Below are positions 1-38,693 of a stretch of 38,693 bases of DNA, one piece after another. Numbering within the stretch: position 1 is the first letter of the stretch; every line of letters starts with the position of its first letter. A model generated the notes under the pieces. That model was not told the DNA's origin. It saw only the letters and a program-made list of their open reading frames with translations, and made no database searches. The translations under genes were made by a program, and so were the position numbers. This DNA comes from [Candidatus Thermochlorobacteriaceae] bacterium GBChlB (GTDB lineage: Bacteria; Bacteroidota; Chlorobiia; Chlorobiales; Thermochlorobacteraceae), in assembly GCA_000724175.1 (NCBI GenBank), contig JPGV01000022.1, positions 547 through 39,239 of the forward strand. Direction: 5' to 3'.

Positions 1-155
1 TCAAACGCGCCTTGTTCGTTGATGAAAGGACCAGCGGCGATGAACATTCCTTTCGGGATATTTTCCAACATCCATTTGATATGTGCGCCCGCGTGAATCA
101 TCACATCTTGGGCGCGACCTTCGTTGCACGTCATTTGAACGACAAAGTATTTCAT
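1..155 (-). CDS. YCII-like small protein, 3' end outside window
   Basis: The first 51 codons are visible and then the gene leaves the window. The protein begins MKYFVVQMTCNEGR and continues with a stretch containing HAGAHIKWMLENIPKG and FIAAGPF. This resembles the start of YCII-related proteins: a short beta strand, a region ending in a His-containing helix, then a strand with A-G-P. Such proteins are small ferredoxin-like-fold dimers, mostly of unknown role. It starts 13 bases after the stop of the UbiA-family gene upstream, so it is probably the last visible gene of the operon that begins near 3580. The assignment rests on overall pattern only. Confidence 0.6.
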   Translation of the reverse strand, partial: MKYFVVQMTCNEGRAQDVMIHAGAHIKWMLENIPKGMFIAAGPFINEQGAF

Positions 156-168
156 GTGTTGAAGTGAG

Positions 169-1116
169 TTAAAAGGTGATGAAAATTCCAACAATTAAAC
201 CAACAATCATGAGCGCGCCGAACTGCGCGTGTAATTGCGCCGCACGAGCAACAATCATTGGGTCGACATTCGGTTGCTCGAGGGCTTGAACTTCTTTGGA
301 AAGTTTAATCGCCGCAGGAAGCGAGAGAAGCGCGAGCAACGCAAACGGTGTCAGTTGCGCGAAAGCCACAAGCAACACAAGCGTGAGGTATGCGCCAAAC
401 GAAAGCACATAGTGAAACTTCTTTGCGCCGTTTTCGCCGAGCCAAATGGCAAGTGTAGAGATGTTCGCTTTTTTATCGGCGGGAATGTCGCGCAAATTGT
501 TGATGTGCAAAATGTCATCGACAAGCAACCCGATTGGAATCGAGTAGAGAATCGGAAGCCATGAGAATGTTTTGGTTTGCACGAAGTATGCGCCGAAGAC
601 CATGAGCGTAGCGAAAGAAAGAATCACTTGCAAGTCGCCAAGTCCGCGATATTTCAAGGAGAGCGGCGGAGCGGTGTAGAAGTAGGCAGAGAGCGCGCCG
701 AAAAGCACAAGGTAAATCAAGACATTAGCGTTTTCTTTGGCATCGATGATGAAATACGCACCAATCGCAACGGCGACCAGAAATGCCACGAGCGCACCCA
801 TTGCTACTTGCTTCGGCGTGAGCGCACCTTGAACGAGAATGTTCAGCGCACCGAAGTTGTCTTTGTTATCCAACCCTGTTTTGTAATCAAAGTAATCATT
901 GACAAGATTGGTAACGATGTGAATCGCCACGCACCCCAAAATGCACAAGACGAAATTGAGAACGCTGAACTCGAAACTGACGAGTCCTTGTGCGCGCATT
1001 GTAAGCGCAATCACGCCGCCCATGACGGCGGGAATCACTGATGCGGTGAATGAATACGGACGAAACGCAATCCACCACGTTTGTGCGGACGGTTTCGGTT
1101 GAACAGCAACTTCCAT
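169..1116 (-). CDS. UbiA-family prenyltransferase (paralogue 1, MenA-like)
   Basis: A 315-residue integral membrane protein of the UbiA superfamily, which transfers an isoprenoid chain onto an aromatic or other acceptor in the membrane. The first Mg-diphosphate motif is intact at about residues 73-86 (NDYFDYKTGLDNKD). The second is intact at about 206-227, with D210 and D214 in NNLRDIPADKKAN followed by STLAIWLG. About eight hydrophobic segments surround them. The ATG at 1116 is preferred because a strong GGAGG site (1122-1126) lies five bases before it; a TTG at 1128 in the same frame overlaps that site. The layout resembles MenA (dihydroxynaphthoate prenyltransferase), but with two paralogues alongside the substrate cannot be fixed from sequence. 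It is the fourth gene of the operon. Confidence 0.88.
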   Translation of the reverse strand: MEVAVQPKPSAQTWWIAFRPYSFTASVIPAVMGGVIALTMRAQGLVSFEFSVLNFVLCILGCVAIHIVTNLVNDYFDYKTGLDNKDNFGALNILVQGALTPKQVAMGALVAFLVAVAIGAYFIIDAKENANVLIYLVLFGALSAYFYTAPPLSLKYRGLGDLQVILSFATLMVFGAYFVQTKTFSWLPILYSIPIGLLVDDILHINNLRDIPADKKANISTLAIWLGENGAKKFHYVLSFGAYLTLVLLVAFAQLTPFALLALLSLPAAIKLSKEVQALEQPNVDPMIVARAAQLHAQFGALMIVGLIVGIFITF

Positions 1117-1120
1117 TGTA

Positions 1121-1126
1121 ACCTCC
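1121..1126 (-). promoter_or_regulatory. Strong ribosome binding site
   Basis: On the minus strand GGAGGT lies just before the ATG at 1116. It is the clearest Shine-Dalgarno site in the window, where most genes have weak ones, and it decides the start of the UbiA-family gene. Confidence 0.75.
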
Positions 1127-1131
1127 AAATG

Positions 1132-1155
1132 GTTAAGCGTTAATTGTTAAGCGTT
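1132..1155. repeat. Direct repeat of a 10-mer, 14-bp period
   Basis: GTTAAGCGTT occurs at 1132-1141 and again at 1146-1155 with AATT between. The second copy overlaps the last codons of the PPOX-type gene. It could be a regulatory direct repeat or a small slippage duplication. No function can be assigned. Confidence 0.4.
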
Positions 1156-1587
1156 GATAAGAGATGTTTCTAAAACTTTTGCGGGAAACCATTGTCGCGC
1201 GAGCGAACTGACGAACCACTTCGAAACATCAAGTCGAACCGGTGCGCAAGGCGTGTAGGTTTGATACCAAGGCATTTTCGCAACGAGCATTTTTCGAACT
1301 CTATCTTCATCGGAATCGGGCAGAAGGGCGGCTTCAAATTGTGCTTGAAGAAAATCTTTCATCGCATCGTTTTGAGAAATCATCAGTGCGCCTTTGGGAT
1401 TCTGCTTCAAGTTCGCAAGCGTTTTGCCTGACTTTTCAAGCAAGAGATAAATCGTGAGGTCGTCGGAAGCGAAGTATGCGCCCAATATCCAAGGCGAGTA
1501 TTCGCCGCCCGTTGTAGCAAGGCTGATGGCGTTGTTTTCTGAAAGGATATTCAGAATCGCAGATTTGATTTCAGTTTCAGGAGTCAT
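1147..1587 (-). CDS. Pyridoxamine 5'-phosphate oxidase-family (FMN split-barrel) protein
   Basis: A 146-residue protein with the PPOX-like split-barrel pattern. An N-terminal helix is followed by a strand around residues 22-33 (SLATTGGEYSPW). A second strand carries the flavin-site signature around 47-71, with EKSGKTLANLKQNPKG, and a C-terminal tail contains LDVSKWF. Members bind FMN, F420 or haem and act as small reductases or oxidases; the cofactor cannot be read from sequence. It sits between two UbiA-family genes, 64 bases after the second and 30 before the first, in the same direction, so it is probably co-transcribed. A redox step on the prenylated product is one plausible inference. 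AAGGA lies upstream of the ATG at a rather long spacing. Confidence 0.75.
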   Translation of the reverse strand: MTPETEIKSAILNILSENNAISLATTGGEYSPWILGAYFASDDLTIYLLLEKSGKTLANLKQNPKGALMISQNDAMKDFLQAQFEAALLPDSDEDRVRKMLVAKMPWYQTYTPCAPVRLDVSKWFVSSLARQWFPAKVLETSLINA

Positions 1588-1651
1588 AATGCTTTAAGTC
1601 CTTTCGATGTTGAAGGTTGTGTTAAAAAAATTGCAAGAAATCTAAACCCGA

Positions 1652-2578
1652 TTAGTTGAACACGATTGAGAGCGCGTATCCAATCACAAGCGACAGCCCA
1701 CCAAGCGTTGCGACACCGATAGCTTGCGACATTGCAGGTTGATAAAGAGAGAGGTCTTTGTAATTACGTGTAAGTGAAACCATCTTGTATGACATTGGCG
1801 CGGTTATCAAAGCGAGCAATGACCAAACAGGAAGCGTGCCAGTGATTACACCTGCGATAAGAAACAAGTAAGCAAACAGTGTAACCGTCGTTAAGAACTT
1901 CACCGCTGTTGCTCGACCTAACTTCACAGGCAAGGTGATTTTGCCATTTTTCACATCGTCATCGTGGTCAAAGATGTTGCTCACGATTCCGACGTTCATC
2001 ACGAAGATGCCAATCGGAATAGAGGCAAGAATTGGCGACCAGTTGAAGGATTGCGTCAGCACAAAATAGACACCGAAAACAACCATCGGACCGAACGCCA
2101 AAAAGATGGAGGTTTCTCCCAAGCCGCGAAAATTCAGGCGAATCGGGGGAGAGGTGTAGAAGAACACGACAAACGCACCCAACAGCGTGAGAATCAGCAC
2201 GGGCATTCCGACGGAAAGCAAGATGTAGATGCCCGATGCCAATGCCAGCACCATACAAATCCAAAATGCGACCATCACTTGCTCCGCTGTGATGATGCCA
2301 CGCACGAGCGGGCTATCGTGAAACTGCTGGTCTTTATTGGCGAAGTTGCCGTTTTTGTAGTCGAAGTAATCGTCGATAAAATCGGCGGCAGAGTGCGCGG
2401 CAATGATGCCGAAAAACGCGAGAAGAAATATCGTCCAATCAAATGAGCCGTGAGCAAAGGCAATAATGCCGCCCAAAATTGCAGGAATCGCGCTGGTTAC
2501 GAGAAAAGGAGCGCGCGCGGCTTTAATCCATATCCCGATGTGTTCGCCTATCGTCAAGGGCTTTGATGCTGCGTTCAT
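1652..2578 (-). CDS. UbiA-family prenyltransferase (paralogue 2)
   Basis: A 308-residue membrane protein of the UbiA superfamily. The first Asp-rich motif is at about residues 69-76 (DDYFDYKN), with Asp where Asn is usual. The second is at about 200-221, SNIFDHDDDVKNGK followed by TLPVKLG, so both metal-binding sites look functional. With paralogue 1 it shares the central signature of a GLG loop followed by FG-x-YFV and W-x-PIL-x-SIPIG, which points to duplication inside this operon. The unusual FDHDDD second motif sets it apart and may mean a different acceptor. It begins 21 bases after the stop of paralogue 3. Substrate unknown. Confidence 0.86.
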   Translation of the reverse strand: MNAASKPLTIGEHIGIWIKAARAPFLVTSAIPAILGGIIAFAHGSFDWTIFLLAFFGIIAAHSAADFIDDYFDYKNGNFANKDQQFHDSPLVRGIITAEQVMVAFWICMVLALASGIYILLSVGMPVLILTLLGAFVVFFYTSPPIRLNFRGLGETSIFLAFGPMVVFGVYFVLTQSFNWSPILASIPIGIFVMNVGIVSNIFDHDDDVKNGKITLPVKLGRATAVKFLTTVTLFAYLFLIAGVITGTLPVWSLLALITAPMSYKMVSLTRNYKDLSLYQPAMSQAIGVATLGGLSLVIGYALSIVFN

Positions 2579-2599
2579 AAGTCGATTTGAGTTTAGAGG

Positions 2600-3580
2600 T
2601 TAAGAGAAAATCAGTCCAATGCTTACCAACACGCCGAAGGAGATTAAGACGGCAATCGAGCGAACGGTTGCCCAAAGGTATTCATGCACTTCGCTGCGAT
2701 TGGCTTCAACCGTTTTGACCACAGAAATCGCAAATGGAATCGAGAGCAAACCGAGAAGTGTGAGTACAGGAAGAACTTGGAAGACAACGCCGAGTATCAA
2801 ACTGATATACCCAGCAATGAGCAACGACTTGATAATCGTATTATTGAGTTTGATAACAAACGTGTTTCCCGCCTCTTGTCGAATTTCGTAGCGCGCACCT
2901 TTGAGATACGCCACAACGGTTACGAAGCAAGCAATGGGAATCGACATCGCGAGCGTAGTCATATCAGCCGTCGGATTGAGCGCGTAATAAGCACCCATCA
3001 TGGAGAGCGGTCCGAAGGTGATAAAGATGACGACTTCCTTGTAGCCGCGTAGCATCAAGGGCGTGAAGAAAATTGCCACAAGCCCACCTAACAGCGCAAA
3101 CAGGAGAATTTCATAACCAACCTTGAACACGAAATACCCGCCGATGAGTGCGTCAATTGCGAGGCATAGTATGCCTGCAAGCAAGGTTTTTTCGTCCTTG
3201 AAAAGCCTATCGGCGAAGAACGGTCGCCATCCAGCAAAAATTTTGGTATGCGCATCGCGCTGGTCGGTGTGGAAGTTGGTGCCATAGTAGTAGAGGTAAT
3301 CGCCACCGGCTTGTCCGATAAAAAGCCCAAGCGCAACAAGCGCAAACGCAAATGCATCAAAATAGCCTTGATGAAACACGATTGCGCCTGTAACCATCGC
3401 AGGAATAATCGACGCGCTAAACAGCAAGACTTTTATGACACGAATGGCGCGCTCGCGTTCAGGCGAGAGTGCAACAGGTGCAGACGGAGCATTTACAGTA
3501 GAATTGCTGAGGGGCAGAGAAGCAGACAAAGGCATACGGCTATCTAAAACCGTATCGGTCGTGTTACGAGATACTGACAT
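2600..3580 (-). CDS. Divergent UbiA-family protein (paralogue 3) with altered Asp motifs
   Basis: A 326-residue membrane protein that aligns over most of its length with the two paralogues downstream, for example FTPLMLRGYKEVVIF and FGPLSMMGAYYA against their loop and FG-x-YFV segments. The catalytic motifs have changed. The first reads GGDYLYYYGTNFHTDQRD at about residues 93-109, so only the first Asp is kept and the second is Tyr. The second motif region, about 228-246, has YEIRQEAGN with two Glu and no Asp. It also has a roughly 45-residue polar Ser/Pro/Ala-rich N-terminal extension, so a start at Met16 is possible. It is the first gene of the operon, directly below the palindrome at 3611-3626. 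It may be a non-catalytic partner or an enzyme with altered chemistry. Confidence 0.78.
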   Translation of the reverse strand: MSVSRNTTDTVLDSRMPLSASLPLSNSTVNAPSAPVALSPERERAIRVIKVLLFSASIIPAMVTGAIVFHQGYFDAFAFALVALGLFIGQAGGDYLYYYGTNFHTDQRDAHTKIFAGWRPFFADRLFKDEKTLLAGILCLAIDALIGGYFVFKVGYEILLFALLGGLVAIFFTPLMLRGYKEVVIFITFGPLSMMGAYYALNPTADMTTLAMSIPIACFVTVVAYLKGARYEIRQEAGNTFVIKLNNTIIKSLLIAGYISLILGVVFQVLPVLTLLGLLSIPFAISVVKTVEANRSEVHEYLWATVRSIAVLISFGVLVSIGLIFS

Positions 3581-5224: not shown

Positions 5225-5827
5225 ATGCGCCAGACATTCCCGCTTGTCTATCAAACGCCTGCCCTTTGGGCGACAACTGTTCTCGCCGAACCGATGGCGC
5301 TGCTCTCCGACCATGCTTACTTGGAGCGCAAAGCGGCGTCCAATGCACTCGACTTACTGAACCGTTGGGCGGAGCCGACGTGTCCCGACACTTGGGTGCA
5401 GACACTTGCACACGTGGCACAGGACGAAACAGCGCATCTTTACAGCGTCTCGCGGCTCATTGCCAAACGCGGCGGCGTGCTCCCACGCTCGCATAAAAAT
5501 CAATATGCCAACGACATGCGCGGCTTAGTGCGCGTCGGCAGAGGCAAGCTCGATATTCTCGACCGCTTGCTGGTCTCTGCCCTGATTGAAGTTCGATCGT
5601 GCGAGCGATTTTTGATACTGGCAGAAACAGCAGAAGATGCGGAACTTGCGCACCTTTACAAAAGCCTCTTTGCATCGGAAGCGGGACACTACAAAACCTT
5701 TCTCAGCCTTGCCGAAACTGTAACAGACGCCGACGTCGTCGCCGCGCGTTGGTCGGAACTCTTGGAACGCGAAGCAGAGATAATTCAAGCGCAACCCAAA
5801 GGCGCAAGGCTACATAGCGGTTTCTGA
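5225..5827 (+). CDS. miaE: tRNA 2-methylthio-N6-isopentenyladenosine(37) hydroxylase
   Basis: A 200-residue ferritin-like non-haem di-iron monooxygenase of the MiaE family. It hydroxylates the isopentenyl group of ms2i6A at tRNA position 37. Candidate iron ligands follow the family pattern: E34 (in SDHAYLERKAASNAL), E68-x2-H71 (QDETAHL), E122 (EVRSCERF) and E152-x2-H155 (SEAGHYKTF). The N-terminal FPLVYQTPALW matches the usual start, which supports the ATG at 5225; GAGG ends only three bases before it, an unusually tight spacing. MtaB, which also modifies position 37 but on t6A tRNAs, is encoded nearby on the opposite strand. MiaB and MiaA, which would supply the substrate, are not in the window. 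Confidence 0.88.
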   Translation: MRQTFPLVYQTPALWATTVLAEPMALLSDHAYLERKAASNALDLLNRWAEPTCPDTWVQTLAHVAQDETAHLYSVSRLIAKRGGVLPRSHKNQYANDMRGLVRVGRGKLDILDRLLVSALIEVRSCERFLILAETAEDAELAHLYKSLFASEAGHYKTFLSLAETVTDADVVAARWSELLEREAEIIQAQPKGARLHSGF

Positions 5828-6022: not shown

Positions 6023-7399
6023 TTAATTCGTTAGTGCGCCAATGGCGTTCAGGTCGCTATCAATGCTCATCAATCGCACCTGCCTGAGTTGCCCGACAAG
6101 CGTTTCTCGCGCCCATTCCTTTGATGGCACTTCAATGCCGACGCGCACATAATTCGCCGAATGCCCGTAGACACACAGTTTTTCAGTGGGTTGTAGCCCG
6201 TCGCTGATGTCGGCGTCGTCGGAAAACTCGTTCTCGAACAAAACCTCGACCGTTTCACCCAAGAAGCGAGAGACAAAGGCTTTCTTTTTGAAATACGATA
6301 GCTCATGCAGTTTTTGATTTCTCGCTTTTTTGACGATAGCAGGAACTGCTGTAAGTGTGGCACTCGCAAGAAGGTCGGCGGCGTGCGTGTTCGGTCGCTC
6401 TGAAAACGTGAAGATGTGCAAGTAGGAAATCGGCAGCGATTGAATAAACTCGTAAGTTTCTTCGAACTGCTCGTCGGTCTCGCTTGGAAAGCCGACAATC
6501 ACATCTGCGCCGATACAGACATGGGGAATTTTCGAGACGACTTCCAAGACGCGCTCGCGGTAAAGATCTTTGTTATATCGTCGGCGCATCAGTTTTAGAA
6601 TTTCCGCCGAACCGGATTGCATTGGCAAATGAAAATGCGGCACAATGCGCGTCGATGCGGCGATAAAATCAATCATCTCGCTCGTAAGCAAATTCGGCTC
6701 AATGGAACTGATGCGCAGGCGCGGAATTGGCAGGTCATTGAGCGCTTGAAGTAATTCAAAAAACGACGCGCCAAATTTAACGCCATAGTCGCCGATATTG
6801 ACGCCGGTCAGCACAATTTCCTGATAGCCTGCGTCAATAAGCAATCGCGCCTGCATGACGGTTTTTTCAATCGATTCAGAGCGCGACGCGCCGCGCGCCA
6901 GTGGAATTGTGCAATACGAACAGTTGTAATCGCAGCCGTCTTGAACTTTCAGGTAAGCGCGCGTTTGGTCGTGTTGTCGGTCGAGCAAGATAGAATGACC
7001 GAACCCAAATGTATCAACGGTTGAAATGTCGCTGACAAAAATGCGTGCCTCGCCCGTTTTTTGAAAGTCGTTCAAGAGCGACGTCATTTCAAATTTTTCT
7101 TTCGCGCCCAAGACGGCATCGACGCCCTCAATCGAGGCGAGCGTTTCGGGTTCAAGTTGCGCGTAGCATCCGACGACTGCGATGTAGCTTTCAGGCGAGT
7201 GTTTGAGCGCCTTTCGAACCGCGTTGCGGCACTTTGCGTCGGCGTGTTCGGTAACGCTGCACGTGTTGATAATCGTCAGGTCGGTTTCTTCGCCAAATGG
7301 AACGAGCTTATAGCCTTGTTTCAAAAACGCCTGCGCAAGTGCAGAGGACTCGGCGACATTGAGCTTGCAGCCGAGCGTGTATGTAGAAATGCGTTTCAT
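6023..7399 (-). CDS. mtaB: tRNA (N6-threonylcarbamoyladenosine(37)-C2)-methylthiotransferase MtaB
   Basis: A 458-residue radical-SAM methylthiotransferase. The N-terminal UPF0004 domain has its three cluster cysteines at C11 (in TLGCKLN, the MtaB-type variant), C47 (INTCSVT) and C78 (VVGCYAQ). The radical-SAM motif C156-x3-C160-x2-C163 (CDYNCSYC) follows. The C-terminal region is TRAM-like. It inserts a methylthio group at C2 of t6A37 in tRNAs reading ANN codons, using two iron-sulfur clusters and two SAM. The length is normal for the family. It is divergent from the tryptophan dioxygenase gene across 86 bases and is followed by the 36-residue membrane protein. Confidence 0.93.
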   Translation of the reverse strand: MKRISTYTLGCKLNVAESSALAQAFLKQGYKLVPFGEETDLTIINTCSVTEHADAKCRNAVRKALKHSPESYIAVVGCYAQLEPETLASIEGVDAVLGAKEKFEMTSLLNDFQKTGEARIFVSDISTVDTFGFGHSILLDRQHDQTRAYLKVQDGCDYNCSYCTIPLARGASRSESIEKTVMQARLLIDAGYQEIVLTGVNIGDYGVKFGASFFELLQALNDLPIPRLRISSIEPNLLTSEMIDFIAASTRIVPHFHLPMQSGSAEILKLMRRRYNKDLYRERVLEVVSKIPHVCIGADVIVGFPSETDEQFEETYEFIQSLPISYLHIFTFSERPNTHAADLLASATLTAVPAIVKKARNQKLHELSYFKKKAFVSRFLGETVEVLFENEFSDDADISDGLQPTEKLCVYGHSANYVRVGIEVPSKEWARETLVGQLRQVRLMSIDSDLNAIGALTN

Positions 7400-7485
7400 T
7401 AGATAAAAAATTTACCAAAGATAACGCAAAAAGAGCGTAGTTTGGTTTATTGCTGAACTGCAAAACCGATTGAGTGAAACTCTGT

Positions 7486-8580
7486 ATGATGAAGCCGTAT
7501 CCACCCGCATACTACGCCGACTATTTGCACTTGGAAAAAGTACTCGATGCCCAAATGCCGCGCAGCGCGCAGTTCGGCAAGCCCGCGCACGACGAGATGC
7601 TGTTCATTACCGTCCATCAAGCCTTCGAGATTTGGTTCAAACAAATTTTGCACGAACTCGATTCCGTGCGCGCACTGTTCGAGAGCGACTTCGTCGATGA
7701 GACGCGCGTTGGCGTTGCGGTCTCGCGGCTTTCGCGCATTGCCGAAATTCAAAAAGTGATGATTGACCAATTCCGAATTTTGGAAACGATGACGCCGCTC
7801 GACTTTTTAGAGTTCCGCGATTTTCTCTCGCCCGCATCGGGCTTTCAAAGCGTGCAGTTTCGGCTCATCGAAAATAAACTCGGCTTGAAGCGCGCCCAAC
7901 GCGTTGACTTTAACCGAACCTCTTACGAAAAACGCCTCTCCGACGAGCATCAGCGCTTGCTCTTGCAATCAGAGTCTGAGCCATCGCTCTTCGAGCTGCT
8001 TGAAAAATGGTTGGAGCGCACGCCGTTTCTCTCATTTGGAAAGTTCGATTTTTGGAAGCTCTACGAGCGCGCTGTGTCGGAAATGCTTGCTGCTGACCGA
8101 CAAACGATTCAAACCAACGCAACGCTTTCCGACGCTGAAAAAACCAAAGAACTCGACGGCATTGCCCGAATCGAGCAAGGCTTTGCGGCAATCTTTGACG
8201 AAGGGAAACATCAAGCCGCGATTGACAAGGGCGAGCGTCGGCTCTCTTACAAAGCCACGCAAGCCGCGCTGCTCATCTTGCTGTATCGAGACGAGCCGAT
8301 TTTGCATTTGCCCTTTCGACTGCTCTCCGTCCTCATTGACATCGACGAACTTTTTACAACATGGCGGTATCGGCACTCGATGATGGTTCAAAAAATGATT
8401 GGCGTGAAAATCGGCACGGGCGGGTCGTCGGGACATCAGTATCTCAAACAAACCGTTGACGCCCATCGCGTGTTTTTGGATTTGTTTAATCTCTCGACAT
8501 TTTTAATTCCACGCTCGGCGCTGCCCACATTGCCCGACGCGGTTCGGCGCGAATTAGGCTTTCACTACGGCAATCATTGA
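7486..8580 (+). CDS. kynA: Tryptophan 2,3-dioxygenase
   Basis: A 364-residue haem enzyme that opens the indole ring of L-tryptophan to give N-formylkynurenine. Family segments are present: HDEMLFITVHQAFEIWFKQ with H44 at the active site, DFRDFLSPASGFQS-type sequence near residue 110, FRLIENKLG, and WRYRHSMMVQKMIG with H297 as the likely axial haem ligand, followed by GTGGSSGHQYL that binds the substrate carboxylate. The ATG at 7486 is chosen; a GTG four codons earlier is in frame. It opens a three-gene run, with the next start six bases after its stop, so catabolic or biosynthetic tryptophan conversion is likely. No kynurenine formamidase or 3-monooxygenase gene is in the window. Confidence 0.94.
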   Translation: MMKPYPPAYYADYLHLEKVLDAQMPRSAQFGKPAHDEMLFITVHQAFEIWFKQILHELDSVRALFESDFVDETRVGVAVSRLSRIAEIQKVMIDQFRILETMTPLDFLEFRDFLSPASGFQSVQFRLIENKLGLKRAQRVDFNRTSYEKRLSDEHQRLLLQSESEPSLFELLEKWLERTPFLSFGKFDFWKLYERAVSEMLAADRQTIQTNATLSDAEKTKELDGIARIEQGFAAIFDEGKHQAAIDKGERRLSYKATQAALLILLYRDEPILHLPFRLLSVLIDIDELFTTWRYRHSMMVQKMIGVKIGTGGSSGHQYLKQTVDAHRVFLDLFNLSTFLIPRSALPTLPDAVRRELGFHYGNH

Positions 8581-8586
8581 TGTGCT

Positions 8587-9168
8587 ATGACAAAACGGCT
8601 ATGGGACGCGGAGGCAAGATTTTACAGGGGTTTACGGCGCAACGCGATGTCAGCCAGAATTTTATCCGAAGAAAATGCCGCCGCAAAAAGACTACTTGCT
8701 CGACTGGATTTTTCAAACATTCATCGAGTGTTGGACATTGGCACAGGCGTAGGTAACGCCCTCTCCTTGATTGAGCATCGGGCGATGCATGTGAGCGCCA
8801 TTGATGCCTCTGCTGAAATGCTCCGCGAAGCAAGCCTGCAATTTCCAAACGTGAAGTTTTACTGCGCCGACGCCTGCGCAATGCCATTTGACGATGCCGC
8901 GTTTGAATTAGTGTTGTGCGTCGGCGTCTCGGAATATGTAAGCGACATGTCGCTGCTCTTTCAAGAAATTTACCGCGTGCTTGCGCCGTCGGGCTACGCA
9001 CTGCTCACAGCGGCAAGCGCATCGCCGTTCAATCTGCTGCGCTATGTGCTTGGTCATCGGTTATTTTTGCGCAGAAGGCTTGACGGCGTTGCCGTTCAAA
9101 GTGGCTTCGACATCCTCGCTGCCTCGAGAACGCTGCTGCAAATTCAATACTTGTTGCAAAAATCCTAA
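8587..9168 (+). CDS. Class I SAM-dependent methyltransferase
   Basis: A 193-residue protein with a Rossmann methyltransferase core. Motif I is VLDIGTGVGN at 48-57, the acidic residue binding the SAM ribose is D73 in SAIDAS, motif II is near MPFDDAAFELVLCVGVSEYV (about 99-118), and motif III is near VLAPSGYALL. It resembles UbiE/Methyltransf_11-type small-molecule methyltransferases. It lies six bases after kynA and 11 before the kynureninase-like gene, which strongly suggests a shared pathway. In 4-methyl-3-hydroxyanthranilate biosynthesis a methyltransferase acts between tryptophan dioxygenase and kynureninase; the arrangement here is similar, but the acceptor is unknown. The C-terminal segment after residue 150 is basic and short. 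Confidence 0.82.
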   Translation: MTKRLWDAEARFYRGLRRNAMSARILSEENAAAKRLLARLDFSNIHRVLDIGTGVGNALSLIEHRAMHVSAIDASAEMLREASLQFPNVKFYCADACAMPFDDAAFELVLCVGVSEYVSDMSLLFQEIYRVLAPSGYALLTAASASPFNLLRYVLGHRLFLRRRLDGVAVQSGFDILAASRTLLQIQYLLQKS

Positions 9169-9179
9169 CAGTGTAAGGT

Positions 9180-10355
9180 ATGTATCAATCCCACTACTCG
9201 AAGTTTCTGGCAGCTAACCCAAATCGGCTGCACTTTGCCGCGCACAGCCATCATCTCTGGCTTGATGTAACGCGAGAGGCGCAGCTTCAGTATTGGGACG
9301 ATTCCGCCGCATACGTTGATAAAAAATGGGCGCATATTTTCTCTGAGGTTGTGCCGAAGGCGCAGCAGCACATCGCCGCCGCCTTGCAGCTATCGTTTCC
9401 CGAACAAATCGTCTTTGCGCCCAACACGCACGAGTTCGTCGCGCGGTTGCTCTCGTGTTTGGATTGGACGAAGCCTGTAACGATTCTCACAACGGATTCA
9501 GAGTTTTACAGCTTCACGCGCCAACTGCAACGGCTGGAAGAATTGCCAGAACTCAAACAACGCCTCTGCGTAAGGCGCATTGCCGCCGAACCCTTCGAGA
9601 CATTTGAATCGCGCTTCATTGAGGCAATCGAGCAAGAAAGTGTCGAGTTGATTTTTTTTAGCCATGTCTTTTTTAATTCAGGGTTTGCCATTGCCGATGT
9701 GGAGCGCATTGTCAAGTCCGTGCAATCAAAACAAACGATGATTGTTATTGACGGCTATCACGGCTTTATGGCGATGCCGACGTCGCTCTCTGCCATAGAA
9801 TCGCGCGTGTTTTACCTGTCAGGCGGATACAAATATGCACAAGCAGGCGAAGGCGTGTGTTTTTTAGCTGTTCCGAAAGGCTCACCGCACCGACCGATTT
9901 ACACAGGTTGGTTCGCTGAATTTGGAAAACTCGCCGACCGACAAAGCGACGCCGTTCCATACAGCGACGACGGATTTCGTTTCGCTGGCGCAACACTTGA
10001 CCCAAGCGGACTCTATCGTTTCAACGCGGCAATGGATTGGCTTGCGGCGCATCTGCTCACGGTCGATAAAATTCACGCGTATGTGCAGCACTTACAACAA
10101 ACGTTTTTTCACTGTCTTGATGCGTCGCGGTTGTCGTGTCTTTCAAGCGAGTCGCTTGTGCCACCAAAGGCGTTTATGCAGCGCGGGCATTTTCTCACAT
10201 TTAATTTACCCAATGCGGCGACGCTCGAAGCAACCTTGTTGAAACGCGACATCGTCGTCGACCGGCGCGGTGAGCGGTTGCGGTTCGGGTTTGGATTGTA
10301 TCAAACGGAGGCGGACATTGAGGAGTTGTTTAAACGCATGAAAGACATTGAGTAA
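9180..10355 (+). CDS. Kynureninase-like PLP-dependent enzyme (aminotransferase class V fold)
   Basis: A 391-residue fold-type I PLP enzyme. The N-terminal NPNRLHFAAHSHHLWLD resembles the kynureninase opening. D191 and H194 in VIDGYHGF would contact the PLP pyridine, and K218 in YLSGGYKYAQAGEG is the likely Schiff-base lysine. A YTGWFAEF-type segment follows. Kynureninase cleaves kynurenine or 3-hydroxykynurenine to an anthranilate and alanine. The position directly behind kynA supports that activity, but the sequence is divergent enough that a related lyase is possible. The stop codon ends at 10355, the base before the dnaX tau stop on the other strand begins, so the two converging genes have no spacer. 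Confidence 0.8.
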   Translation: MYQSHYSKFLAANPNRLHFAAHSHHLWLDVTREAQLQYWDDSAAYVDKKWAHIFSEVVPKAQQHIAAALQLSFPEQIVFAPNTHEFVARLLSCLDWTKPVTILTTDSEFYSFTRQLQRLEELPELKQRLCVRRIAAEPFETFESRFIEAIEQESVELIFFSHVFFNSGFAIADVERIVKSVQSKQTMIVIDGYHGFMAMPTSLSAIESRVFYLSGGYKYAQAGEGVCFLAVPKGSPHRPIYTGWFAEFGKLADRQSDAVPYSDDGFRFAGATLDPSGLYRFNAAMDWLAAHLLTVDKIHAYVQHLQQTFFHCLDASRLSCLSSESLVPPKAFMQRGHFLTFNLPNAATLEATLLKRDIVVDRRGERLRFGFGLYQTEADIEELFKRMKDIE

Positions 10356-36042: not shown

Positions 36043-38693
36043 ATGAAACAGTTTTTAACACTCGCGCTCCTGTTGCTTTTTTCAAGCGCTGCCGTTGGGC
36101 AGACCGTCATTGCACGGCAGGACTTTGAGACAACGCCTGCCACGCCAACGCTGAATTTTACTGGCGTTACGCCCACCAGCGGCACAAATGCGTCGGGCGG
36201 TCGACCTGCCTCCGCAAACTTTGCGGCTGAGGGCAGCCGTGCGTGGTCGTTCAGCGGGTCGGCGACGCAGACTGCCACGTTTGATAATGTGAGCCTGTCG
36301 GGCTTTCGCGATGTCGTTGCCCAATTTCGGCTTGCCGCGTTTTCCGCCACAAGCGGCAACGGCATGGAAGTGGAGGACGTCGTTCTTGTAGAGATAAGCA
36401 CGGACAACGGCACAACCTATTCGCAGGAGTTGCGCGTTACCGGCTTTGGAAGCGGATCGACGGCAGGCAACGTGGTTTGGAATTATGACGCAACCGGCAT
36501 CGCCGAAACTACCTTCGACGGCTTGAACGACCCTGTCATTTTTGCGCCCGCCGGCAGTGGAATTCGCACGACCGACGGGTTCAGCACCGTGCGCCTGCTC
36601 ATTCCCGATGGCACAAGCCAAATTCGGTTGCGCATTACGGCAAACTGCAACAGCAGTAATGAGCGGTGGTGCGTCGACGACGTCCGCATTACGGGAACGC
36701 CGACCGTCTCGCAACCGCCGACAAAGCTCGTCATCGCGTCCATTTCGCCTGCATCTCCAACCGTTGGTCAGCCGTTCAGCATTACGGTTCAAGCGCAGGA
36801 CAACACAGATGCGCCGCAGGCAGTTACCTCCACTACCACGATTTCCTTAGCAAGGCTTGCAGGCACAGGAACATTGGGCGGCACAACGACGGGCAGCATT
36901 CCAAACGGTCAAACATCAACGGTCATTTCAGGCTTGACTTACAGCGTTGCCGAATCGGGCGTTACACTCCAAGCCTCCGCCACAAGCGGTATGAGCCTCG
37001 CGGCGGGAACCAGTGCAGCATTTACCGTTTCGACGGTTGTCTTGCCGACGCGGTTGGTTGTTACGGTGGTTTCGCCTGCATCGCCCGTTCTCAATCAGCC
37101 GTTTAGCGTTACGGTTGAGGCGCAAGACGGCGGCGGCACCGCCAGACCCGTCAATCAAGCCACAACGATAACGCTCACGCGCGCGAGCGGCACAGGAACA
37201 TTGGGCGGCACAACGACGGGCAGCATTCCAAACGGTCAAACATCAACGGTCATTTCAGGCTTGACCTACAACACGGCGCAAACAGGTGTTACGCTTACTG
37301 CCACTGCAATAAGCGGTATGAGCCTGTCCTCTGGTACAAGTGCAAGTTTTAATGTCGTCAGCATGGGCAGCGTGCCACAAATTGTCATTGAGCCAACGCT
37401 GAACGGCGCTGGACTGCGTAGCGCCTTGGTAACACAATACAGACCATCGTCGGTGCTAAGCTACAACGGCGCGCGCGACCAGATGTATGCCAACATTTAC
37501 AATGTGAACAACAAACTGCGGTGCGTCTATACTGGTTTTGAAATCACGCTTAATCGGAGCAGCACAACGCCACGAAGCGATGCCAACGCGGGCGGCATTA
37601 ATTGCGAACACACATGGCCTCAATCGCTCGGCGCAACAGGACAAGCACAGAGCGATATGCACCACTTGTTCCCAACACGCATTGACGCCAACAGCGAGCG
37701 CGGCAACTTGCGCTTCAACGACATTCCCGACGCCTCGACCAATCTCTGGCGCAGACTCGCCCAAACGCTGACAACAATTCCAACCTCAAACATAGACGAA
37801 TACAGCGAGCTACGCACAGGCATTGAGTATGAGCCGCGCGAAGACCACAAAGGCAATGTGGCACGGGCAATATTTTACTTCTACACAATGTATGAATCAC
37901 AAGCCGACGATGCGTTCTTCACCGCGCAGCGCGACGTGCTTTATCGATGGCACTACCAAGACCCCGTCGATTCGGCAGAATATGCGCGCACATTTGCTAT
38001 CGCAGGGTTTCAAAGCAATCGACCAAACCCATTTGTCTTGGACAGCACGCTCATTCGTCGTGCATACTTTCCGAGCATCGCGACGGCAAACTTTACTGGT
38101 GGCGGCACAATTCCCGCCGGCACTTACGATAACATCACCATTACCAGCAACGCGACGCTGGGCGGCAATGTCAGCGCAATCGGAACTGTGCAGTTCAACG
38201 GCGGCAACCTAAATACAAGCGGCTTTACGCTTAACTTGAGCACATCAGGACAACTTGCCAGCGAGAACACGGTGCCGGGACAATACCTCATCGGCACGGT
38301 CTCGGCGCAACGCCCGTTGAGCGGGTCGACGCCCATCAATGTCGGCGGTTTAGGCGTGGTCATCAATCCTCTTGGAAACAATTTGGGCAGTGTCTCGGTA
38401 ACGCGGGTGAGCGGCACGGCAGGCATTGTAACCGTTGGCTCACAGAGCGGCATTGCGCGGCGTTGGAACATTTCGCCGCAGTTTCAGCCCAGTTCAAATG
38501 TCAATGTCCAACTCCTCTGGAACAGCGCCGATAACAACGGCAAAACAGGCATCTTGGCACTTTGGAAGAGCAATAATGGCGGGCTGTCTTGGCAGCAAGT
38601 CTCTGGCGCAGATGTTCGGGCGTCATTCGAAGCTGAATTCATGACCAATTCATTTTCCGACTTCACTGTTACCGATGCCGATAACCCGCTTCC
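36043..38693 (+). CDS. Secreted endonuclease I-family nuclease with Ig-like repeats, 3' end outside window
   Basis: 883 codons are visible and the gene continues beyond the window. The signal peptide MKQFLTLALLLLFSSAAVGQ is followed by a jelly-roll-like domain to about residue 220. Two Ig-like repeats start at about 227 and 336. The nuclease domain lies at about 440-660. Its Endonuclease_1 (EndA/NucM) motifs are NCEHTWPQS (520-528) with general base H523, SDMHHLFPTRIDANSERGN (537-555), and EPREDHKGNVARAIFYF (597-613). Metal binding would involve E522 and N555-type residues. A beta-rich region follows, where a T9SS tail may be expected past the edge. It probably degrades extracellular DNA or RNA. 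The repeats contain an exact 77-bp duplication. Confidence 0.88.
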   Translation, partial: MKQFLTLALLLLFSSAAVGQTVIARQDFETTPATPTLNFTGVTPTSGTNASGGRPASANFAAEGSRAWSFSGSATQTATFDNVSLSGFRDVVAQFRLAAFSATSGNGMEVEDVVLVEISTDNGTTYSQELRVTGFGSGSTAGNVVWNYDATGIAETTFDGLNDPVIFAPAGSGIRTTDGFSTVRLLIPDGTSQIRLRITANCNSSNERWCVDDVRITGTPTVSQPPTKLVIASISPASPTVGQPFSITVQAQDNTDAPQAVTSTTTISLARLAGTGTLGGTTTGSIPNGQTSTVISGLTYSVAESGVTLQASATSGMSLAAGTSAAFTVSTVVLPTRLVVTVVSPASPVLNQPFSVTVEAQDGGGTARPVNQATTITLTRASGTGTLGGTTTGSIPNGQTSTVISGLTYNTAQTGVTLTATAISGMSLSSGTSASFNVVSMGSVPQIVIEPTLNGAGLRSALVTQYRPSSVLSYNGARDQMYANIYNVNNKLRCVYTGFEITLNRSSTTPRSDANAGGINCEHTWPQSLGATGQAQSDMHHLFPTRIDANSERGNLRFNDIPDASTNLWRRLAQTLTTIPTSNIDEYSELRTGIEYEPREDHKGNVARAIFYFYTMYESQADDAFFTAQRDVLYRWHYQDPVDSAEYARTFAIAGFQSNRPNPFVLDSTLIRRAYFPSIATANFTGGGTIPAGTYDNITITSNATLGGNVSAIGTVQFNGGNLNTSGFTLNLSTSGQLASENTVPGQYLIGTVSAQRPLSGSTPINVGGLGVVINPLGNNLGSVSVTRVSGTAGIVTVGSQSGIARRWNISPQFQPSSNVNVQLLWNSADNNGKTGILALWKSNNGGLSWQQVSGADVRASFEAEFMTNSFSDFTVTDADNPL
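36862..36938 (+). repeat. 77-bp exact direct repeat, copy 1
   Basis: These bases are identical to 37189-37265, in the same frame and 327 bp (109 codons) apart, matching the period of the Ig-like repeats. The protein segment starts GTGTLGGTTTGSIPNGQTST. Flanking repeat sequence is much more diverged, so the identity looks recent (gene conversion or duplication). Confidence 0.9.
37189..37265 (+). repeat. 77-bp exact direct repeat, copy 2
   Basis: Second copy of the segment at 36862-36938. The next base differs (C against T), and the base before also differs, so the identical tract is bounded on both sides. Confidence 0.9.

Follow-up and report, generated by a model that had tools for sequence, protein, structure and literature searches.

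The nearest curated models for two of the proteins described here, A and B, are the 1,4-dihydroxy-2-naphthoate prenyltransferases of the MenA (PRK06080) type, which have the same fold. For a third protein, C, the closest solved structure is UBIAD1 (8djk), which consists of one UbiA chain, has both Asp motifs and was solved in complex with HMGCR, not with a UbiA paralogue. Among pairs of membrane-bound enzymes, both hop partners, HlPT1L and HlPT2, are regarded as carrying catalytic motifs, unlike the C-B pair that is the subject of this study. This plant system joins two aromatic prenyltransferases, both membrane-bound, in a heteromer, according to the title of Li et al. 2015, as cited in PMC8430942. 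In HexA/HexB and Nus1/Rer2, one subunit has the catalytic motifs and the other lacks them or has a supporting role (PMC7839719); these enzymes have folds unrelated to C-B and build prenyl chains rather than prenylating acceptors. A search of the open-access literature (subscription papers being outside its scope) yielded no bacterial heteromeric UbiA enzyme by title or abstract, and nothing on Thermochlorobacter UbiA, on UbiA pseudoenzymes or on the UbiA superfamily and menA in Anaerolineae. Of the papers on Leptolinea quinones and Thermochlorobacter menaquinone, none was about these genes by title.

Results

Three UbiA-like genes in a row in a Thermochlorobacteriaceae genome

The window, i.e. 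the whole stretch of DNA analyzed (38,693 nucleotides, bases 547-39239 of contig 22), comes from a member of the Candidatus Thermochlorobacteriaceae (Chlorobiota) with a genome of 3.05 Mb that is complete by its markers. Five genes lie in a row on its minus strand: gene C, encoding a UbiA-fold membrane protein (3580-2600, 326 aa); gene B, encoding a UbiA-superfamily prenyltransferase (2578-1652, 308 aa); a gene for a PNPOx-like FMN-binding split-barrel protein, a possible flavoprotein (1587-1147, 146 aa); gene A, the third UbiA paralogue (1116-169, 315 aa); and the 5′ part of a YCII-related gene, which runs from its start codon at 155 to position 1 and on beyond the window into an N gap. The gaps between them are 21, 64, 30 and 13 bases, respectively, and the description of the locus made from its letters alone, five co-directional genes separated by 13-64 bases with a split-barrel gene between two UbiA genes and a YCII-like gene last, was borne out. 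The Pfam UbiA model matches A with 109.7 bits and B with 125.0 bits (cut-off 34.2), while the PNPOx_N match of the split-barrel protein is only just above threshold (31.5 vs. 28.1 bits). The YCII copy is truncated by the window edge and the N gap; a full-length orthologue (L050:7527-7904) matches Pfam YCII. Gene A has an in-frame TTG at 1128; the GGAGG, however, stands before the ATG at 1116. Beyond the N gap, and on the operon's strand, is a TetR-family gene. The N run (L011:410-546) separates it from the YCII gene and the contig begins just past it; part of the operon may be absent from the assembly at this point.

Of the ten places in the genome that match Pfam UbiA, A and B account for two and C for none. 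The remaining ones include a haem O synthase, two proteins of the BchG/ChlG type, BchK, a DGGGP-synthase-like protein, a MenA (L007, above the NCBIfam cut-off) and two of unclear type. With its own MenA, haem O synthase and chlorophyll synthases of the BchG and BchK types encoded elsewhere, A, B and C are not the housekeeping copies. Two UbiA-family proteins of the genome (L009:1342-2358 and L010:1423-2307) have no NCBIfam match at E 1e-30.

Elsewhere in the window, genes for a tryptophan 2,3-dioxygenase, a methyltransferase and a class-V aminotransferase with a kynureninase C-terminal domain stand in a row (7474-10355, plus strand), which suggests kynurenine-type tryptophan breakdown. A tRNA hydroxylase of the MiaE type (5225-5827, plus strand), which does not reach the length of the NCBIfam model, adjoins an MtaB-type methylthiotransferase (6023-7399, minus strand); both types of protein have position 37 of tRNA as their target. 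An endonuclease I domain is encoded in a plus-strand frame (36043-38691) that stays open for at least 883 aa and runs past the window end.

B keeps both Asp-rich motifs and C has neither

Protein B has the profile and the all-helical fold of the UbiA superfamily. In an alignment of 16 orthologues its motifs read DDYxD...GNxxNKxxQFHDSPL and VSNxxDxxDD, with D70, D73, D204 and D208 invariant, so that both Asp-rich motifs are kept. The first departs from the NDxxDxxxD form, D69 standing in for N and the final Asp being absent, and is followed by an invariant stretch, NxxNKxxQFHDSPL. The AlphaFold model of B (mean pLDDT 82.0) finds archaeal UbiA structures and UBIAD1 in Foldseek (6m31, 8djk and 4od4), and UBIAD1 is also its best sequence match, as it is for C.

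The window copy of C has no match at all in the Pfam search, and its NCBIfam matches are weak and of the MenA type only. Its place in the UbiA superfamily comes from fold and sequence relationship: it is sister to B, its profile match is UBIAD1 (E 1.8e-08), and its AlphaFold (AF2) model (mean pLDDT 81.8; both models are of single chains) has UBIAD1 (8djk) as its top Foldseek match (E 2.1e-04). The count of three UbiA-like proteins thus stands, A and B by Pfam and C by profile search and fold comparison. Since Pfam misses C here, such pairs have likely been overlooked, or split, in annotation.

Neither of the two Asp-rich Mg2+/diphosphate-binding motifs is present in the 16 aligned sequences of C. 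The conserved motifs of C are instead QxxGDYxYxYxTxxH...D(A/S)HTKIFAGW and VAYxKxA: at the first site, the N, D and D of MenA are replaced by Y, Y (or F) and T, and at the second, the NNxRDxxxD region has become VAYxKxA(R/K), with both Asp lost in all 16 orthologues. The run HTKIFAGW is invariant and peculiar to C. Strong purifying selection acts on the gene (dN/dS = 0.05-0.14), which, together with the invariant residues that C has of its own at the former motif sites, argues that C is not decaying.

To see how B and C compare site by site, we can consider the 285 alignment columns that they share, over which conservation is correlated (rho 0.47). Columns conserved at 93% or more number 84 in B and 63 in C, 38 of them in both, and at 23 of these 38 the residue differs between B and C. 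This suggests that the same sites matter in the two proteins, for different work.

C and B derive from one duplication and are distinct from MenA

In a mixture-model tree, B and C together form one clade (100/98), each having a support of 100 alone. It follows that the two genes come from one old duplication, after which the pair travelled together. MenA, A, B and C each have a fully supported clade of their own, A being set apart from MenA at 100/100; this tree leaves out the genome's full set of UbiA proteins and replaces one that included them and had long branches. The copies are hence not strain-specific duplicates of one MenA. Like enzymes of the MenA type, A and B keep Asp motifs, NDYFD and DxxxD in the case of A. 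Unlike them, A, B and C belong to clades of their own, C is without both motifs, and B, with its invariant NxxNKxxQFHDSPL, has the N of NDxxD replaced by D.

The C-B pair is conserved across phyla without its neighbours

Used as query against GTDB genome contigs, C gave 18 loci, which belong to Chlorobiota, Bacteroidota (Saprospiraceae, Salinivirgaceae and others), Chloroflexota (Leptolinea and other Anaerolineae) and one Acidobacteriota metagenome-assembled genome (MAG); a plasmid search with C gave zero matches. Whole-genome searches added three genomes (G001, G004 and G764), for a total of 22 including the window's own. In 22/22 of them, C is followed directly by B on the same strand, and the pair spans at least three bacterial phyla. 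In some loci (L054, L057 and L061, in the last of which B runs off the contig), the stop codon of C overlaps the start codon of B. Most of these loci and genomes are MAGs, and frames and start codons in the high-GC loci were set by the nearest ATG. In G764, on contig 45 (L100), B is in pieces spread across several frames, next to a C that is itself partial, reflecting either sequencing error or decay. The locus from Acidobacteriota, on a MAG contig of 13.6 kb, may be misbinned; its copies cluster with those of a Bacteroidota MAG in both the B and C halves of the tree, which may be due to joint transfer or to misbinning.

Co-occurrence was sampled in two groups. Among 394 Bacteroidota genomes, a phylum within which GTDB counts the Chlorobiota, C (>400 bits) and B (>480 bits) were found in the same 9, the next match to B scoring 189 bits. 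Among 147 Leptolinea-family genomes, both were found in the same 6. The pair is rare and patchy: it occurs in 2/150 genomes of the Saprospiraceae family sample, and two of the eight other Thermochlorobacteriaceae genomes lack it, one of these two having a completeness of just 84%. Other Chloroflexota have B-like matches (L088-L093) that do not belong to the B+C clade and that no C adjoins.

An all-against-all comparison of neighbours within the fetched flanks found no gene beyond C and B that recurs beside the pair across lineages, apart from one weak transporter similarity several kilobases off and frames that overlap, or are antisense to, B and C. Squalene-type genes, recognized by eye, adjoin the pair in L056 and are not common to other lineages. 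Of the gene order read from the window, it is therefore the C-B part that is conserved, and the five-gene order is not conserved as a unit.

The remaining genes have a narrower distribution. Gene A was found in six Thermochlorobacteriaceae genomes and in G010, which belongs to another family of the order, and the PNPOx-like gene adjoins A in L050, L052 and L026 as well. The order in genus g3 is PNPOx-A-YCII-C-B-TetR-TonB receptor-MFS (L050 and L052); in Thermochlorobacter aerophilum (L051), it is C-B-A, with PNPOx and YCII missing nearby; and in G010 (L026), PNPOx-A occurs without C or B. The existence of C-B without A or PNPOx/YCII in other lineages, and of PNPOx-A without C-B in G010, indicates that at least two units, C-B and PNPOx-A, have been joined. 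Taken together, the comparisons argue that the core of the operon is the C-B pair and that A, PNPOx and YCII are local additions, and they do not support the suggestion of a dedicated pathway encoded by all five genes as a unit.

Discussion

We propose that C and B together make up one membrane-bound UbiA prenyltransferase of two subunits, with B as the catalytic subunit and C as a repurposed partner, and give this proposal an even chance of being right. B would bind a prenyl diphosphate via Mg2+ held by its two Asp-rich motifs and pass the prenyl chain on to an acceptor. C, the other paralogue to come out of the ancestral duplication, with its metal site replaced, would pair with B and shape or bind the acceptor or the chain, in the manner of the non-catalytic subunits of soluble heteromeric prenyltransferases. 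In Thermochlorobacteriaceae, the third UbiA enzyme, A, would have been recruited beside the pair, as would PNPOx-like, YCII, TetR, TonB-dependent receptor and MFS transporter genes in some genera. What the comparisons establish is the duplication, the motif loss and invariant replacement residues of C, the purifying selection on C, and the strict adjacency and co-occurrence of the two genes; from this genetic and structural evidence we infer the physical complex, the catalysis by B and the role of C. The fixed order and overlapping genes fit the subunits of one stoichiometric complex better than separate enzymes. Overlapping stop and start codons are usual for subunits of one complex. Of the two interpretations offered by the sequence-only reading, a pathway and a multi-subunit prenyltransferase, the latter is the better, for C and B and not for all three UbiA genes.

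Adjacency and co-occurrence would also be compatible with two enzymes acting in sequence, and the invariant polar residues at the active-site positions of C exceed the needs of a mere scaffold. The main rival explanation, possible if rather unlikely in our view, is that of two separate enzymes of one short pathway, in which B is the prenyltransferase and C performs another step on the same lipid, e.g. metal-free phosphate binding or cyclization, via a rebuilt site with invariant His, Asp, Lys and Arg-like residues. The residues of C that are highly conserved exactly at the UbiA active site, in letters unlike those of B, and the purifying selection on the gene speak for this reading, and UbiA-fold proteins with altered chemistry, the terpene cyclases, do exist. 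However, characterized UbiA enzymes use the Asp motifs (PMC7839719), of which C has neither, and a fixed order with overlapping genes is better suited to a stoichiometric complex. A bolder version of our proposal, in which C-B is the first bacterial heteromeric UbiA enzyme and the metal-free site of C acts directly in a reaction new to the superfamily, we regard as unlikely.

A broader pathway, in which all of the genes make a prenylated, possibly quinone-like compound in Thermochlorobacteriaceae and the TonB receptor and MFS transporter move the product, would account for the gene order in genus g3 and for the presence of A beside C-B in Thermochlorobacter even though PNPOx and YCII are missing there. 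It becomes distinctly improbable in view of the presence of C-B without A, PNPOx and YCII in all other lineages and of PNPOx-A without C-B in G010, a distribution suggesting that the core function does not need A, PNPOx or YCII. Least probable of all, and very much so, is that the copies serve as additional MenA enzymes in making quinones of the menaquinone type. The best NCBIfam models for A and B are indeed of the MenA type and A passes the TIGR00751 menA cut-off (137.8 vs. 102.15), the only MenA cut-off that it does pass; but A (188 bits) and B (146 bits) fall short of the equivalog cut-off of 277, B and C are under every MenA cut-off, none of the three is in the MenA clade, and the genome has a separate MenA. 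Furthermore, the six Chloroflexota carriers have no match in a MenB-family search, and in the MqnA/D-family search four of the six have none and two have marginal ones (E 1.0e-6 in G400 and 6.8e-4 in G407), making menaquinone synthesis unlikely.

Among chain-building enzymes, heteromeric prenyltransferases in which one partner is non-catalytic are already known; as a two-subunit enzyme, C-B would be a two-part bacterial enzyme of the UbiA kind, of which we found none described. That phototrophic Chlorobiota and fermentative Chloroflexota should have this two-gene module in common with Bacteroidota, and no further neighbouring gene, points to a prenylated lipid or cofactor not yet described.
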